This document shows, piece by piece, positions 11,673 through 26,781 of a stretch of DNA of 32,403 nucleotides (within the stretch, counting starts at the first letter, position 1; every line of letters starts with the position of its first letter). The stretch lies in NCBI GenBank assembly GCA_021794195.1, contig JAJYRG010000026.1, forward strand, positions 1 through 32,403. Reading direction: 5' to 3'. Both the position numbers and the translations under genes were made by a program. The stretch is from Bacteroidota bacterium (GTDB lineage: Bacteria; Bacteroidota; Bacteroidia; Sphingobacteriales; Sphingobacteriaceae). The notes beneath the pieces are model-generated. The model was given only the letters and a program-made list of their open reading frames with translations, had not been told where the DNA came from and searched no databases.

Positions 11673-14480
11673 TTATAAAGTCTTGATAAATAAAACAAGT
11701 GACTCTACTTCACTGTCTTTTAATACCCCTAAATAAGAAGGCATTTCATCCCCGTACCCTTTGACAATTTTCTTTTTCGAATCCAGTATGGATTCCCTCA
11801 GGTAGTCCCCGTCGGCCACAGCGCTGGTCCCGTCCGTAAAGTGGCGGGTAGATCCATATACCCCCACTAAGGCAGGCCCGTATTTTCCCTTCACGCCCGC
11901 ATCCAAAGAATGACAGCCTTTGCACGCATATTTCTCAAATAAGGCTGCGCCCCGTTTTTCCGAGGCCTCCCCTTCATTGTCCTCCAGTAAGGTCAATTCT
12001 TCTTCTGATAGGACAAGGCTTTCCGGATCAATGTTTACAGCTTTGAAAGCTGTCCCCAAATCCATTTCCCCGGCATCATTCACCGTAAAATAAAATTCAT
12101 CGGAAAAAGAATGCCCCGCTTTTGTGCGTAAAGAATAGTCTACTTCCATCTGCATGACTTCTGTCATATTGGGGAGGATTAAGAGAAGGGATTTACCGTC
12201 ACTGCCCAGATGGCTTTCGAGTACAGGCAGGGTCTCTTCCCCCGGCTCTCCATTGAGCAGAAAATGGCCGGACCCATATTTTTCCGTACGCTCATAATTC
12301 CACCTTTTCACCTGAAAGTTATCAATGTCTTCTGCGGATTTCTCATCCAGCGCTTCCGAAAACCTAAGGAGGACGCCCTGTTTCCCTGCTTGAAACCTGG
12401 TAGGCAGGTAATAAGGCTTCCCTGTGTACCTCATACGGGTCAGTGCACTGACCCCGTCCGAATTAGATCCCCATAAATTGAAACCGGCAATATACAGCTG
12501 CCCGTCTTTTGGATGTAAGGCACCTTTCAGAACCGGCGCAGGATAGTCCGCCCGTATATAGGCCACTCCGCCCTGCATGCGCTGCCTGTCCGTGCTGTCT
12601 ATTAAGACCGTAAACACGCCCGGGCGCCCAAAAGAAAAATGTACCATGGAATTATTTAAAGGCCCCATCTCATCCCCCGTCAGCCAGAGCTGGCTTATGC
12701 TGGACTGATCGATACGGTGCGGGATCCAGGTAATCGGCCTTTTGATGTCCTCTCCTTTGTGAAAGTGATCGGCGGGGATGACCCCGAAATAATCATCTTT
12801 TTTGGCATGGTAAATGGGCGTTGCCGGCACATAATTTCCCTGCTGGTCGGATAGGGTGACAAAACCTGTAGTAGGGTTCAAGCCCATAAAAGGCACTCGC
12901 AGACCGGTTGAGAAGATTTCAGTATGCTCCCCGTCCGGACTTATTTTCAAGAGGGTACCGGCGTGCACCGAACTGGCCCTGAAACCTTTTGGCTTTTCAT
13001 CTGCTATGGATGCAAAACCTTCGGGAATCGTCCCGCCCCCTTTCGCCAGATAGACATACCCTTTATCATCTATGCCCATATCGCCCGCCCATTCCCTCGA
13101 ATCTATGGACTGTACCACGTCCGCCGCAAAATTTTCATAATAGTCTGCATTGCCGTCTTTGTTCAGGTCATGCAGGCGCGTCACCCCTTCTCTTCCAAAA
13201 ACAAATACCTCATCTTTGTAAACCTCTATGCTCAAAGGTTCAAAAAAGCCAGAAGCAAATCTTGTCCACTCCAGTTTGTTCAACCCGGCATCGATTTTAT
13301 CGAGCAGCCATACATCCCCGGAAAAAGTGAGTACGGCAGCGCGCCCGTCCTTAAAAAAGGCAATATCTGCCGCACGGAAATTCCGGTTCCAGGGGTTGGG
13401 CACAGGCAGGGTCAGCTCATCCAGAACATAGGCCGCCGTATCCGGGGCTGCTTTGCCTTTTGTGTACACCTTCTCCTTCCAGTACGCTTTACCTCCTTTT
13501 TCAAATTTCGGAAAGTCTGCTTTCAGCTTCATCCCTTTGCCTTTGACACTGTCCTGCAAAGCTTCCGGCCCATCCCAGAACTGTATCTGAAAAATGCTTT
13601 CTTTGTCCTGTGGCAACAGTTCCAAAACCACGTACCGGCCGTCAATGACGGCAAGCTTAGCATCCTGCTCCTTTTTCGAATGTATGCGGACGAGGGCGAC
13701 ATCTCTTTCTCCTTCCCCCTGGCCGCCGGCATCATGATAAATATGCAGCCAGCCGTCTTTCTCTTCGGTGGCCGTTATGTCCCGAAACTCTCCTATCACA
13801 TTGTACAGCTTCTTTTGAAACGGCCCGATCCGGACTGTCCTTGTAAACAGACCTTTTGCAAAGTCATCTGCAGAGGGCATTTCATAAATATCCGTCCCCT
13901 CTCCCCCAACCGAATAATGCAGGACTGCCTGAGCCCCATGAGTATGTATCCCCTTATATCGCCCATAAGAAGACGGAAGAGGCCCCCATTTCAAAGAGTC
14001 TGCTTCGGTTATGGCCGTCCGGACATCCTCAAACCCCGGGCTTCCCTCTGTCCATCCCGGATAGAGGCCCGTCGCCATCGCCGGCTCGCCCAATATTTCG
14101 GGAAAACCGTCGTTTTTATTAAAAAAATCATGGTAGGAAACCTGGGCAACCCCTTTCATGCTCACAAAATCCCCTTCCCAGGCAGCTGCCCACCTCAGCA
14201 GGTCCGGGTCAAACGCCATGTGGAGTTCATTGCCCAGCTGTATGGCTACGGCTCTCGGTGCATAGTTATGTTCCGGAAACCTTGGGCCGGTATTCCTGAG
14301 ATCCAAAGAGGTACGGATAAAGGGAAAGTCTTTTTCCACGAAGCCGGCAAACTCCAGACTGTCAAAATCATTGTCGGTAATGATATCTACAGCTCCCTGA
14401 CGGCACGCCGTAAGGGACATACATAAGAAAAAAACATACAGAAAAAGAAGCGTCAAACCACTTCTTGTCATGTCAGCCAT
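11673..14480 (-). CDS. Large lipoprotein with DUF6797-like region, beta-propeller and C-terminal cytochrome c domain
   Basis: Probable periplasm-facing, membrane-anchored haem protein related to PQQ-type sugar (sorbosone/glucose) dehydrogenases. A lipoprotein signal ends at Cys26 (LTAC). The N-terminal third resembles DUF6797 regions; the middle (about 370-680) has propeller-like repeats (AADIAFFKDGRAAVLTFSGDVW, GMGIDDKG-like strands, LKISPDGEHTEIFSTGLRVP). The C-terminus carries a single haem motif CKGCH at 853-857 and a likely distal ligand Met913 in GDEMPSY. Together these suggest electron transfer from a carbohydrate oxidation step; substrate is unknown. First gene of the pair with the ThuA-like gene. 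GC is clearly above the flanks (30-31 of 60 bases in two lines counted at 13021 and 13441). The start could be at 14471. Confidence 0.82.
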   Translation of the reverse strand: MADMTRSGLTLLFLYVFFLCMSLTACRQGAVDIITDNDFDSLEFAGFVEKDFPFIRTSLDLRNTGPRFPEHNYAPRAVAIQLGNELHMAFDPDLLRWAAAWEGDFVSMKGVAQVSYHDFFNKNDGFPEILGEPAMATGLYPGWTEGSPGFEDVRTAITEADSLKWGPLPSSYGRYKGIHTHGAQAVLHYSVGGEGTDIYEMPSADDFAKGLFTRTVRIGPFQKKLYNVIGEFRDITATEEKDGWLHIYHDAGGQGEGERDVALVRIHSKKEQDAKLAVIDGRYVVLELLPQDKESIFQIQFWDGPEALQDSVKGKGMKLKADFPKFEKGGKAYWKEKVYTKGKAAPDTAAYVLDELTLPVPNPWNRNFRAADIAFFKDGRAAVLTFSGDVWLLDKIDAGLNKLEWTRFASGFFEPLSIEVYKDEVFVFGREGVTRLHDLNKDGNADYYENFAADVVQSIDSREWAGDMGIDDKGYVYLAKGGGTIPEGFASIADEKPKGFRASSVHAGTLLKISPDGEHTEIFSTGLRVPFMGLNPTTGFVTLSDQQGNYVPATPIYHAKKDDYFGVIPADHFHKGEDIKRPITWIPHRIDQSSISQLWLTGDEMGPLNNSMVHFSFGRPGVFTVLIDSTDRQRMQGGVAYIRADYPAPVLKGALHPKDGQLYIAGFNLWGSNSDGVSALTRMRYTGKPYYLPTRFQAGKQGVLLRFSEALDEKSAEDIDNFQVKRWNYERTEKYGSGHFLLNGEPGEETLPVLESHLGSDGKSLLLILPNMTEVMQMEVDYSLRTKAGHSFSDEFYFTVNDAGEMDLGTAFKAVNIDPESLVLSEEELTLLEDNEGEASEKRGAALFEKYACKGCHSLDAGVKGKYGPALVGVYGSTRHFTDGTSAVADGDYLRESILDSKKKIVKGYGDEMPSYLGVLKDSEVESLVLFIKTL

Positions 14481-23737: not shown

Positions 23738-24523
23738 TCAACTGATGTGCTGAACAAAATCTGCTATGGCTTCGGCAGGTCGCTCCTGCTTCATAAAACT
23801 CTCCCCGATTAAAAAACCTTGAAAACCTTTACTCCGAAGCTCGGTAATTGTTTTAGGTTCTGAAATCCCACTTTCTGATACTTTTATGTATTTATCAGGA
23901 ATTTTATTGACCAAACCATATGAAGTTTCTAAACAAACCGTAAAATCTTTTAAATTACGATTGTTCACTCCTATTGCGCTTACATGAGGATGAAGGCTTT
24001 TCTCCAGTTCCTTTTCGTTATGTACTTCCAAAAGAACAGACAAGCCTATCTCGTGAGCTTCTGCAGCATATTCTGCCAATTGATTCTCCTCTAAATAAGC
24101 GGCTATTAATAATATGATATCTGCACCATAAGCTTTTGCTTCTATGATCTGGTAAGGATCCACTATAAAATCTTTACGTAGTAAAGGAATTTGTAATACT
24201 TCTCTAGCACTTGTCAAATCCTGTAAAGAGCCTTGAAAAAACGGAGTATCTGTCAATACAGATACGGCACTGACGCCGACAGATTGGTAAGCGGAAACAA
24301 CTTCCGCAACAGAAGATTTTCCATTGATCAGCCCTTTAGAGGGGGATGCTCTTTTAAATTCTGCGATTATTCCGTTTCGAGAAGTATCTTCAAAAGATTC
24401 TTTTAAAGAATAACACTCACGGGAAAAGCCACTCATATCTTTTAATACAGAAAGAGGTGTGTTTTTTTTGGCGATATCAACCTCTCCAAATTTATGCTGA
24501 ACTATTTTATCCAGTATAGTCAT
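23738..24523 (-). CDS. trpC: Indole-3-glycerol-phosphate synthase
   Basis: TIM-barrel enzyme that closes CdRP to indole-3-glycerol phosphate in tryptophan synthesis. Family motifs are intact: IIAEFKRASPSKG (catalytic Glu and Lys), VSVLTDTPFFQGS, LLRKDFIVDPYQ, GADIILLIAA, LLEVHNEKEL, IGVNNRNLKDF and VSESGI. The length (261) is normal and there is no TrpF fusion. It begins 4 bases after trpG stops. The usual trpD gene is not between them, and no trpF, trpB or trpA follows; the next gene is dusB. Confidence 0.96.
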   Translation of the reverse strand: MTILDKIVQHKFGEVDIAKKNTPLSVLKDMSGFSRECYSLKESFEDTSRNGIIAEFKRASPSKGLINGKSSVAEVVSAYQSVGVSAVSVLTDTPFFQGSLQDLTSAREVLQIPLLRKDFIVDPYQIIEAKAYGADIILLIAAYLEENQLAEYAAEAHEIGLSVLLEVHNEKELEKSLHPHVSAIGVNNRNLKDFTVCLETSYGLVNKIPDKYIKVSESGISEPKTITELRSKGFQGFLIGESFMKQERPAEAIADFVQHIS

Positions 24524-24527
24524 GTGT

Positions 24528-25100
24528 TTATAATTCTAACCAATTTTTAATCAAAATAATACCGTTATCTGAGAGTATAGAGTCGGGACTAAATTGCACT
24601 CCTTTTACAGGAAGATTTTTATGAGAAACAGCCATGATCAATCCCTCTTCATCTTCGGCAGTGGCTTTTAATTCTTCCGGGAAACCGTCTTTGCTAACCC
24701 CCCAGGAGTGATAACGTGCAATCTTCGATCCGGGAGAATAGCCTTCGAAAAGAGTTTCGGTAGAGTCTATTATCTTAATCCCTGTAGCTACCCCATGAAA
24801 GGGCTCCTCTAAAGGAAATAGTTCGCCTCCGTATAAGACAACAATTGCCTGCATACCTAACCCTATACCTAAAATATGCTTTTCAGATCCATATCGTTGT
24901 AAAACTTCCATTAACAGCCCAGCCTCCGAAGGAAGACCTGGTCCTGAGGAGAGGATAATATAATCAAATTGCTCTACAGCATCTACTTCAAACCGATCAT
25001 TTCTCCAGACCGTATACCCAATACCTAATTCGCCCAAGAGTTGCACTAGATTATAGGTAAAAGAGTCGTAATTATCTATTATCAATACGTTTTTATTCAT
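24528..25100 (-). CDS. trpG: TrpG-like anthranilate synthase component II with a lost catalytic triad
   Basis: Class I glutamine amidotransferase-type subunit beside trpE. The fold is well kept: IIDNYDSFTYNLVQ at residues 7-20, the oxyanion-type SSGPGLP at 51-57, RYHSW at 129-133, and VKGVQF at 165-170; 190 residues is the normal length. But the catalytic positions are all changed. The nucleophile motif GxCLGHQ reads GIGLGMQ (Gly80 for Cys, Met83 for His), and the HPE motif reads SPD (Ser171 for His, Asp173 for Glu). I checked these codons in the DNA; the reading frame is intact and there is no stop. Glutamine hydrolysis should be impossible by the known mechanism, so TrpE would have to use free ammonia or another amidotransferase, and this protein may serve a structural role. 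It is 53 bases after trpE and 4 before trpC. Confidence 0.85.
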   Translation of the reverse strand: MNKNVLIIDNYDSFTYNLVQLLGELGIGYTVWRNDRFEVDAVEQFDYIILSSGPGLPSEAGLLMEVLQRYGSEKHILGIGLGMQAIVVLYGGELFPLEEPFHGVATGIKIIDSTETLFEGYSPGSKIARYHSWGVSKDGFPEELKATAEDEEGLIMAVSHKNLPVKGVQFSPDSILSDNGIILIKNWLEL

Positions 25101-25153: not shown

Positions 25154-26560
25154 TCATATAGTTTCTGCTAATTCTAAGGCCTTTCGTAAGGCTGCAATTT
25201 TATTATTTACTTCTTGCAGTTCATTTTCCGGATCAGATTTTAACACGATTCCTCCGCCTGCCTGATAATGTAAACGGCTCTTTTTACTTAAAAAAGAGCG
25301 GATCATAATGGCGTGATTAAAATCCCCATTAAACCCCATAAAACCTATCGCGCCACTATAAAACGAGCGCTGTAAACCTTCATGTTGGTCAAGTAAAGTA
25401 AGGGCTCTATGCTTAGGCGCTCCGCTTAATGTGCCGGCTGGGAAAGTATCTGCAACGACATCAAAAGGGCTGGCGTCTTTACGCAATTGCCCAGTGACTT
25501 TAGATACCAAGTGTACTACATGCGAATAATATTGTGCCTCTTTGAAAGATTTCACCTGTACATTTTCGCAATGCCTGTTCAAATCATTTCTTGCTAAATC
25601 GACAAGCATGACATGCTCAGCAGTTTCTTTATCATCCTCTTTGAGTTTTTTGGCTATTTTCCTATCCTCTTCCTTATCTCCTGTGCGTTTAAATGTGCCT
25701 GCAATAGGATAAATAGCAGCTTCATTTCCAGCTAAAGTGATTTGTGCTTCGGGCGAAGAGCCAAAGAGTTTAAAGTTTCCATAATCAAAGTAAAACAAAT
25801 AGGGTGAAGGGTTTATTGATCGTAAAGCTCTGTACACATTAAACTCATCCCCTCTAAAATCGGTTGAAAAAGCCCGGGAAGGCACTATTTGAAAGACATC
25901 ACCTCTTTTTATATGCCGTATCATTTTTCTCACCAATTCCCTATGTTCTTCATCATTGCGATTTGACTTTTCTTCCCCGATCCTTTGAAAAGTATATTCC
26001 GGGAAATTTTTATTCTGTATAAAATTTTCTATTTGTTCAATCTCGGAAGTCTCTTTTTCGCTGAGTGTATTTTCAAAAATATGTAAACGATTGTGAAAGT
26101 GATCTATAGCAATCACAAATTTATATACGTGATATTGCAGATGGGGAATATTCCGCTCGGAATCTAAAGGCGTATTTATTTTTATATCTTCAAAATGGGT
26201 AATGGCATCGTACGTGAAATAACCAAACAAACCATTGGGCACTACGTTAGGGATAGTAGGGGCTGAAGATGAAAAAGAACGCGAAAAATCATTAACTTCT
26301 TTACGTAAGTCAATCTTTCCTGCTTCTTTGCTTGTTTTCTTTCCATCCGGAAAATAAGTCTCTAAGCTTCTTTCAGTTAGCTGAATGCCGGCCAAAGGTT
26401 GACAACAAATATAGCTTATGTTGTTATCCCTACTGTGGTAATCCGAACTTTCCAATAAAAGACTGTTAGGAAAAATATCCCGCAGTCGTAAATAAATACT
26501 GACCGGAGTAGCTGTATCTGCCAAAAGCTCCTTATAATTTGTGTGAAATGTATATTTCAT
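25154..26560 (-). CDS. trpE: Anthranilate synthase component I
   Basis: Converts chorismate to anthranilate, the first committed step to tryptophan. The N-terminal region carries the LLES motif (residues 35-38) that forms part of the tryptophan feedback site in studied TrpE proteins, so the enzyme is probably still inhibited by tryptophan. The chorismate-binding part is complete: RGDVFQIVPSRAF, SPEAQITL, PIAGTFKRTGD, EHVMLVDLARNDLN, FPAGTLSGAPKHRAL, and GFMGFNGDFNHAIMIRSF then YQAGGGIVLKSDPENEL. Length 468 is normal and no TrpG fusion is present. It is the first long gene behind the trp attenuator and is therefore expected to be controlled by tryptophan supply. Confidence 0.96.
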   Translation of the reverse strand: MKYTFHTNYKELLADTATPVSIYLRLRDIFPNSLLLESSDYHSRDNNISYICCQPLAGIQLTERSLETYFPDGKKTSKEAGKIDLRKEVNDFSRSFSSSAPTIPNVVPNGLFGYFTYDAITHFEDIKINTPLDSERNIPHLQYHVYKFVIAIDHFHNRLHIFENTLSEKETSEIEQIENFIQNKNFPEYTFQRIGEEKSNRNDEEHRELVRKMIRHIKRGDVFQIVPSRAFSTDFRGDEFNVYRALRSINPSPYLFYFDYGNFKLFGSSPEAQITLAGNEAAIYPIAGTFKRTGDKEEDRKIAKKLKEDDKETAEHVMLVDLARNDLNRHCENVQVKSFKEAQYYSHVVHLVSKVTGQLRKDASPFDVVADTFPAGTLSGAPKHRALTLLDQHEGLQRSFYSGAIGFMGFNGDFNHAIMIRSFLSKKSRLHYQAGGGIVLKSDPENELQEVNNKIAALRKALELAETI

Positions 26561-26590: not shown

Positions 26591-26625
26591 CAAAAATAGC
26601 CCGATGTTTTCCATCGGGCTATTTT
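26591..26625 (-). terminator. Intrinsic terminator of the trp attenuator (segments 3:4)
   Basis: On the - strand a perfect stem is formed by AAAATAGCCCGATG-type arms: + strand positions 26593-26606 against 26612-26625, 14 bp with a GC-rich core AGCCCGATG and a 5-base loop. It is followed by a run of Ts (TTTTTG) on the - strand. It lies between the leader peptide and trpE, 31 bases before the trpE start codon, where an attenuator terminator belongs. Confidence 0.88.
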
Positions 26626-26699
26626 TTCTGTTTTTATAGTCTATATGCTTTTAAAAATGCATCATACCCAGATGGTTCTGTCGAAAACACTCGCAGAAC
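26611..26699 (-). promoter_or_regulatory. trp attenuator: leader hairpin 1:2 and possible antiterminator 2:3
   Basis: Hairpin 1:2 on the - strand: GTTCTG (26699-26694) pairs with CAGAAC (26680-26675), with CGA/TCG pairing inside and one bulge. Segment 2 continues as CCATCTGGGT (26675-26666), which can pair with GCCCGATGG of segment 3 (26619-26611): five pairs, one bulged T, three G-C pairs and a G-T wobble. Segment 3 is also the 5' arm of the terminator, so 2:3 and 3:4 exclude each other. This is the geometry of ribosome-mediated attenuation. The pairing is read by eye; no energies were computed. Confidence 0.75.
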
Positions 26700-26733
26700 G
26701 CCACCAGAATATATGAGATGTATGTATGTTCAT
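26662..26733 (-). CDS. trpL: trp operon leader peptide with tandem Trp codons
   Basis: A 23-residue open frame starts with ATG at 26733, 19 bases after the -7 box of the promoter, and ends with TGA at 26664-26662. It begins MNIHTSHIF, then has two adjacent TGG codons (Trp10, Trp11), then RSASVFDRTI, a third Trp codon at residue 22 and a final Val. Three Trp among 23 residues is far above chance, and the frame sits exactly between the promoter and a hairpin/terminator array ahead of trpE. A ribosome short of tryptophanyl-tRNA would stall at the two TGG codons and uncover segment 2, favouring the antiterminator. The AAGAA stretch just before ATG is a plausible ribosome site. Confidence 0.88.
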   Translation of the reverse strand: MNIHTSHIFWWRSASVFDRTIWV

Positions 26734-26751
26734 TTCTTAATTACAATTAAG

Positions 26752-26781
26752 CAAATTTAAGTTTTTTTTTGAAAAGACAAA
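26752..26781 (-). promoter_or_regulatory. Promoter of the trp operon
   Basis: On the - strand TTTG (26781-26778) is followed after 18 bases by TAAATTTG (26759-26752), a full match to the Bacteroidota -7 box. The start site would lie about 5-8 bases on, some 12 bases before the trpL ATG. An AT-only perfect palindrome, arms ATTTTTTC and GAAAAAAT (26781-26798), touches the -33 box; it may be a leftover terminator for trmD or a protein site. Confidence 0.72.

Follow-up and report, generated by a model that had tools for sequence, protein, structure and literature searches.

A very probable ribosome-mediated tryptophan attenuator ahead of the trpEGC operon in a member of the Sphingobacteriaceae

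In the leader of the Escherichia coli trp attenuator, codons 10 and 11 are both for Trp, the RNA has segments 1-4 with the stop codon by segment 2, and a terminator stands before trpE. Tryptophan attenuators of the Bacteroidota are also already known, from the Rfam family Bacteroid-trp (RF01692, listed in 2010), for which the Weinberg 2010 table has a 'y' both under RNA and under cis-regulation; from a passage of PMC6414381, in which Bacteroid-trp precedes the trp operon of Flavobacterium psychrophilum and is described as resembling the leader of E. coli; and from a passage of PMC9723704, in which clues to leader-peptide attenuation ahead of amino-acid operons are given for the same species. 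The initial annotation of the locus described here, which knew of no well-studied example in this phylum, was therefore partly right at most, given RF01692 and its discussion in PMC6414381; no direct experiment on RF01692 was found in the literature searched, which lay mostly outside subscription journals. The main text of Naville and Gautheret 2010 contained none of the Bacteroidota or trp terms looked for, and no Sphingobacterium was among the matches listed in the literature on trpE leader peptides, with subscription journals mostly outside the search. A further point of comparison is the Sinorhizobium meliloti leader RNA rnTrpL, which, according to a section of PMC7298713, arises by attenuation, lowers the stability of trpDC mRNA and has its 5' end at its own ATG.

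The window (the whole stretch of 32,403 nucleotides analysed) comes from a genome of 2.84 Mb in 155 contigs, 90.3% complete, which from its sequence appears to be a Sphingobacterium: most of the best-matching named records for trpE come from this genus, and in the same-genus genome G005 the coordinate of trpE (C3:1084446) is identical to that in the S. multivorum NCTC11343 record. The element ahead of trpE in the window is very probably a ribosome-mediated transcription attenuator of the trpEGC operon. Its parts all lie on the minus strand, in the order promoter, leader open reading frame (ORF), hairpin 1:2, antiterminator 2:3, terminator and trpE, and the gene order after the leader is trpE, trpG, trpC and dusB:

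26778..26781, minus strand: -33 element TTTG, from the sequence, about 31-34 nt 5' of the predicted start site
26752..26759, minus strand: -7 box TAAATTTG, with a predicted transcription start at about 26747
26662..26733, minus strand: leader peptide ORF MNIHTSHIFWWRSASVFDRTIWV, 23 codons, from translation of the sequence, with Trp clusters kept in relatives
26701..26706, minus strand: adjacent Trp codons 10-11 (TGG TGG), predicted control codons, within the 5' arm of hairpin 1:2
26668..26670, minus strand: third Trp codon (TGG, codon 22), within segment 2
26664..26712, minus strand: hairpin 1:2, -18.5 kcal/mol, its 5' arm including Trp10-Trp11
26666..26675, minus strand: segment 2 CCAUCUGGGU, 5' half of the antiterminator, from folding and the swap control
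26611..26620, minus strand: segment 3 AGCCCGAUGG, common to antiterminator and terminator, from folding and the alignment
26592..26626, minus strand: intrinsic terminator 3:4, 15 bp with a loop of 5, -23.5 kcal/mol, with covariation in 49 leaders
25154..26560, minus strand: trpE, anthranilate synthase component I, best match NCBIfam TIGR00564 at 421.5 bits, under the 517.7 cut-off
24528..25100, minus strand: trpG, glutamine amidotransferase subunit whose catalytic residues (Cys, His, Glu) are substituted, TIGR00566 above cut-off
23738..24523, minus strand: trpC, indole-3-glycerol phosphate synthase, NF001377 above cut-off

The anatomy proposed in the initial annotation was recovered in full: the promoter with its -33 TTTG (26781-26778) and a -7 box, the 23-codon frame with a pair of adjacent TGG codons (10-11) and a third near its end (22), the 1:2 hairpin, and a segment 2 able to pair with segment 3. 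The stop codon of the leader ORF lies just past the third Trp codon. Segment 2 (CCAUCUGGGU) pairs with GCCCGAUGG of segment 3 (26619-26611), with one bulged U, and the minimum free energies computed for the 1:2, 2:3 and 3:4 structures are -18.5, -13.5 and -23.5 kcal/mol, respectively. A terminator before trpE had also been called correctly, but its stem is of 15 bp and not 14, and the T run described with it amounts on the minus strand to a short run of 5 U, counted within the stem and followed by GUAAAG; a terminator scan called the 26592-26626 site on the plus strand only. The fold of the window leader has a z of -5.87, and 0/200 shuffles were equally stable. As in E. coli-type attenuators, a Trp-cluster ORF is found between the promoter and the first structural gene, a 3:4 terminator, albeit with a short U run, is found as well, and in the fold of the window leader segment 1 of the 1:2 hairpin holds the control codons.

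To describe the RNA under a stalled ribosome, the covered RNA was left out of the fold, with an assumed footprint reaching 12 nt past the start of the A-site codon. With the ribosome at Trp10 or Trp11, and segment 4 not yet made, 2:3 is the stable fold (-14.2 and -12.3 kcal/mol, respectively); with the ribosome at the stop codon or at Trp22, -0.5 kcal/mol remains, and then the terminator forms at -23.5 kcal/mol. As soon as segment 4 has been made, every state computed, stalled states included, is most stable when folded into the terminator, so that antitermination must be kinetic, i.e. take place during transcription. In the mechanism that these folds suggest, the polymerase would start near 26747 and make a leader transcript some 155-160 nt long, the leader ORF of which is presumably translated. 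When charged tRNA-Trp is ample, the ribosome would pass codons 10-11, reach the stop codon and cover segment 2, and segment 3 would then be left to pair with segment 4, leading to termination ahead of trpE. When charged tRNA-Trp is scarce, the ribosome would stall at Trp10-Trp11 in the 5' arm of 1:2 and free segment 2, which would pair with segment 3 before segment 4 exists, delaying or blocking the terminator and allowing trpEGC to be transcribed in what would be a response to tryptophan. Codons 10-11 would be the control codons, and with the ribosome halted at Trp22 termination would be the favoured outcome.

The same arrangement is found among relatives. A trpE match at E 1e-60 was present in 34/35 of the other same-genus genomes drawn, and upstream regions were collected from 121 loci, 110 of them distinct (101 obtained via trpE searches and 9 fetched by RF01692), two copies of the window (L001, L002) and identical upstream regions or leaders being left out of the counts. 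A short ATG-initiated ORF with WW or WxW occurs in 108/110 distinct trpE upstream regions, as compared with 1.2% of dinucleotide shuffles; relatives devoid of Trp codons, which according to the initial annotation would speak against attenuation, are thus not what is found. The two misses, both among the trpE-search regions, are L065, in which an adjacent Trp pair is found in a GTG-start frame, and L096, with two separated Trp codons. A terminator lies behind the Trp-cluster ORF in all 119 loci that have the ORF (of 121). Outside the family, a Trp-cluster ORF was found on the right strand in 8/11 fetched trpE upstream stretches from 10 genomes (L200, L201, L203, L205-L208 and L210). Since nearly every close relative examined has an attenuator of this kind, that of the window is very probably real.

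Alignment A1 consists of 49 representatives of 90 distinct leaders, and the same 49 Sphingobacteriaceae trpE leaders served to build model R1. R1 matches the window at 49 bits (E 4.8e-6), as it must by construction, the window being one of the 49 training rows. It matches 10/10 same-family genomes drawn (own included), and matches are found in 65/295 genomes across the class, but plain terminators at other sites are picked up as well. The second of the matches in G313 (50.8 bits) was rejected, being a common terminator that lacks a Trp ORF, and, among the R1 matches fetched outside the family, a Trp leader was judged present at the match in G117 only. R1 is therefore not used to claim spread.

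How far the arms of the leader have changed together was assessed on A1 and, for 2:3, also independently of register. In the core of the 3:4 terminator, 91.5% of the cells are paired and 30 double changes are seen, each value being reached by 0/500 column shuffles; the covariation score was likewise reached by none of the 500 and the number of covarying pairs by one, while further pair types did not go beyond chance (256/500). The terminator exceeds all 500 shuffles, therefore, on three of five measures. The 2:3 helix is paired in 74.8% of the alignment, as compared with 27-40% when slid, but it is not clearly above column shuffles, which reach its percentage of pairing in 24/500, its double-change cells in 92/500 and its covariation score in 179/500 cases. 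This weak result is due in part to shifts in the register of segment 2 in some genera (Mucilaginibacter and some others). In a register-free swap test, each segment 2 was scored against its own segment 3 and those of others in 50 leaders (the 49 and L109): own 2:3 pairing averages -12.15 kcal/mol, as opposed to -10.51 +/- 0.28 when swapped, a difference found in 0/20,000 permutations, uncorrected for the kinship of the leaders. With relatedness again uncorrected, p is 0.0014 for 16 Sphingobacterium leaders, and 0/20,000 permutations reach the value of 32 others. For the window segment 2, its own segment 3 is a better partner than any of the other 49, but for the window segment 3 the segment 2 of three other leaders is slightly better still. 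In L109, segments 2, 3 and 4 have changed in concert relative to its neighbours. Finally, 2:3 reaches z <= -2, against shuffled intervening sequence, in 79/92 trpE-search leaders and is weaker in 13/92; it does so in 0/9 RF01692 loci. The compensatory changes that the initial annotation had expected in the stems are, thus, seen in 3:4, whereas for the 2:3 antiterminator folding, the swap test and the z of relatives are favourable and the column shuffles on the family alignment are not. The main proposal of the initial annotation, namely that the locus works by ribosome-mediated attenuation of the type established in Proteobacteria, is supported by the Trp codons of relatives, the covariation of the terminator and the swap test.

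The remaining trp genes of the source genome, trpD, trpF, trpB and trpA, are on another contig (C37), and they too are preceded by a Trp-rich frame:

L133:5865-5927 (contig C37), minus strand: second Trp-rich leader ORF MNYIKNTYGWWNYNLNCSGA, followed by a terminator and then trpDFBA

The 207 nt ahead of trpD contain MNYIKNTYGWWNYNLNCSGA and a hairpin of the GGCTTGCC type. Of the 36 genus genomes with a trpD match, the source genome being one, trpD loci were fetched from 30, and every one of these loci has such a leader, 27/30 with a run of three Trp codons. With RF01692, the trpD leader of the source genome scores 28.7 bits, under the 49-bit cut-off, and those of relatives come near to it from below, with 38.4-47.5 bits in 6/13 genus loci and 46.5 bits in L125; with RF00513 they score up to 34.4 bits, under the 41-bit cut-off.

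No Rfam family reaches its gathering score anywhere in the window, and 22 sub-threshold matches, most of them to look-alikes of terminators (suhB, Thr_leader, MicC), were rejected. The window leader is not matched by Bacteroid-trp (RF01692; gathering score 49 bits) even at E 10, and Trp_leader (RF00513) gives 15.6 bits, under its gathering score of 41. As neither model is reached, the window leader belongs to a Sphingobacteriaceae group missed by Rfam; since the trpD leaders score nearer the cut-off, the trpEGC leader is also the less RF01692-like of the cell's two Trp leaders. Across the class, RF01692 was met in 14/295 genomes, in 10 above cut-off, at sites before trpE, trpB or trpD and mostly with WWW leaders.

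The spacing between promoter and leader frame is a further feature of these loci. The motif TA..TTTG is found no more than 60 nt from the leader ATG in 83/90 distinct trpE leaders (window included), and in 80/90 (e.g. L033-L112) the distance from the start of the -7 box to this codon is 13-18 nt. Among the 484 long ORFs that these loci contain, the starts of which are unverified, the motif is found within 60 nt in 97 and at 13-18 nt in 24; in the trpD leaders the exact motif is absent in 27/30 and lies at 25-26 nt in 3/30. As the Flavobacterium -7 box is placed at -12 to -5 in a passage of PMC9723704, and likewise in one of PMC6847099, a spacing of 13-18 nt predicts a 5' UTR of 1-6 nt. In the window leader, which is an exception, this distance is 26 nt, and the same box position predicts a start near 26747 and a 5' UTR of 14 nt. 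For comparison, published work gives leaderless mRNAs as 5.5% in F. psychrophilum (PMC9723704), 5' UTRs of less than 10 nt as about 3.7% in B. thetaiotaomicron, and leaders longer than 10 nt on 87% of transcripts in F. johnsoniae (PMC6847099). The chances seem to us evenly balanced that these observations form one picture for the Sphingobacteriaceae, in which the trp genes are split between trpEGC and trpDFBA, each with its own Trp attenuator of different sequence, and the trpEGC leader peptide is near-leaderless, its promoter being fused to the ORF and its ATG lying 1-6 nt from the RNA 5' end, with the window leader as a divergent case whose 5' UTR is longer.

Between segments 2 and 3 (A1 columns about 85-100) relatives carry a loop like AATCAACC-AAAACC; the strings ATCAA and AAACC/AAGCC occur together in 71/90 distinct leaders and are absent from the window leader. 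The loop region may be part of an inner antiterminator helix in some genera. A loop of this kind has no role in a simple attenuation model, and it could be taken as a hint that Trp or a Trp-binding protein acts directly on the RNA, as a riboswitch or in a TRAP-like fashion, with no ribosome stalling. The retention of Trp codons in nearly all relatives, the missing loop strings in the window and the failure of every Rfam family to reach its gathering score (the lower-scoring matches being chiefly terminator look-alikes, with Trp_leader at 15.6 bits) make this scarcely credible. The recurrence of the loop in 71/90 leaders, and the presence of the second trp operon (trpDFBA) elsewhere in the genome, would also suit an attenuator whose terminated leader RNA or leader peptide additionally acts in trans, by analogy with S. 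meliloti rnTrpL/peTrpL. However, the loop region can belong to an inner antiterminator helix in several genera, and the window has no such loop, so that an added trans function appears unlikely.

It might also be supposed that the hairpin is a mere intrinsic terminator of trmD, which lies upstream on the same strand, and that the Trp-rich frame is accidental; indeed, the hairpin by itself is a strong stem. Between trmD and the hairpin, however, lie a -7 box and a Trp-cluster ORF, for which the chance expectation is 1.2%, and segments 2 and 3 match each other in the swap test. Moreover, the arrangement recurs in 58 loci that have trpE, trpG and trpC and no upstream trmD match, although a few of them (e.g. 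L090 and L107) hold only about 400 nt upstream. As the leader persists where trmD is not the upstream gene, the hairpin is not simply a trmD terminator, and a fortuitous frame is very improbable; ribosome-mediated attenuation of trpEGC is the preferred reading.

As for the genes of the operon, TrpG has LGIGLGMQ in place of the (L/F)G(I/V)CLG.Q of relatives and QFSPDS in place of QFHPES, the replacements being Cys to Gly, His to Ser and Glu to Asp. A TrpG without the Cys and HPES was seen in 2/109 readable alignments, both being copies of the window gene, and no other TrpG/PabA above the family cut-off was found in the source genome (90% complete). From these replacements, the anthranilate synthase may depend on ammonia. 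Elsewhere in the window, a 500-aa plus-strand frame (12924-14426) lies inside a 935-aa minus-strand gene (DUF6797, cytochrome c domains); it is probably not a gene, as it has no Pfam match and the minus-strand gene has one.

Overall, comparison among relatives strongly supports an extension of tryptophan attenuation to a family of which the trpE leader tested escapes current Rfam models. Furthermore, precise attenuator coordinates are now available in a phylum whose mRNAs, to our knowledge, are without Shine-Dalgarno signals. If the near-leaderless arrangement is real, a unit made of promoter, ORF and attenuator would suit such a phylum, and would provide a natural system for how Bacteroidota ribosomes load leaderless RNA fast enough for coupling to transcription.

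With the E. coli trp attenuator (RF00513), the window shares the Trp pair at codons 10-11, segments 1-4, a stop codon near segment 2 and a terminator before trpE; it differs in its Bacteroidota-type promoter, its 23 codons, the third Trp codon in segment 2 and an operon of trpEGC only. The likeness to S. meliloti rnTrpL/peTrpL, as described in a section of PMC7298713, lies in an attenuated trpE, in trp genes split over operons and in a leaderless ORF resembling the short 5' UTR predicted for relatives; unlike in that system, both trp operons here have their own Trp leader, and the window 5' UTR is predicted to be of 14 nt. RF01692 and the window have in common a Trp-rich leader ORF and a terminator at the head of trp operons, the leaders of RF01692 loci being e.g. 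MKTILNNTWWWNNLRQSS. However, the terminators of the 9 RF01692 trpE loci are mostly AAGGCTTGTC-like, while those of Sphingobacteriaceae trpE leaders are mostly CCCGACG-like, and the 2:3 pairing downstream of the Trp codons, which was not found in the 9 RF01692 trpE loci, is present in the window.
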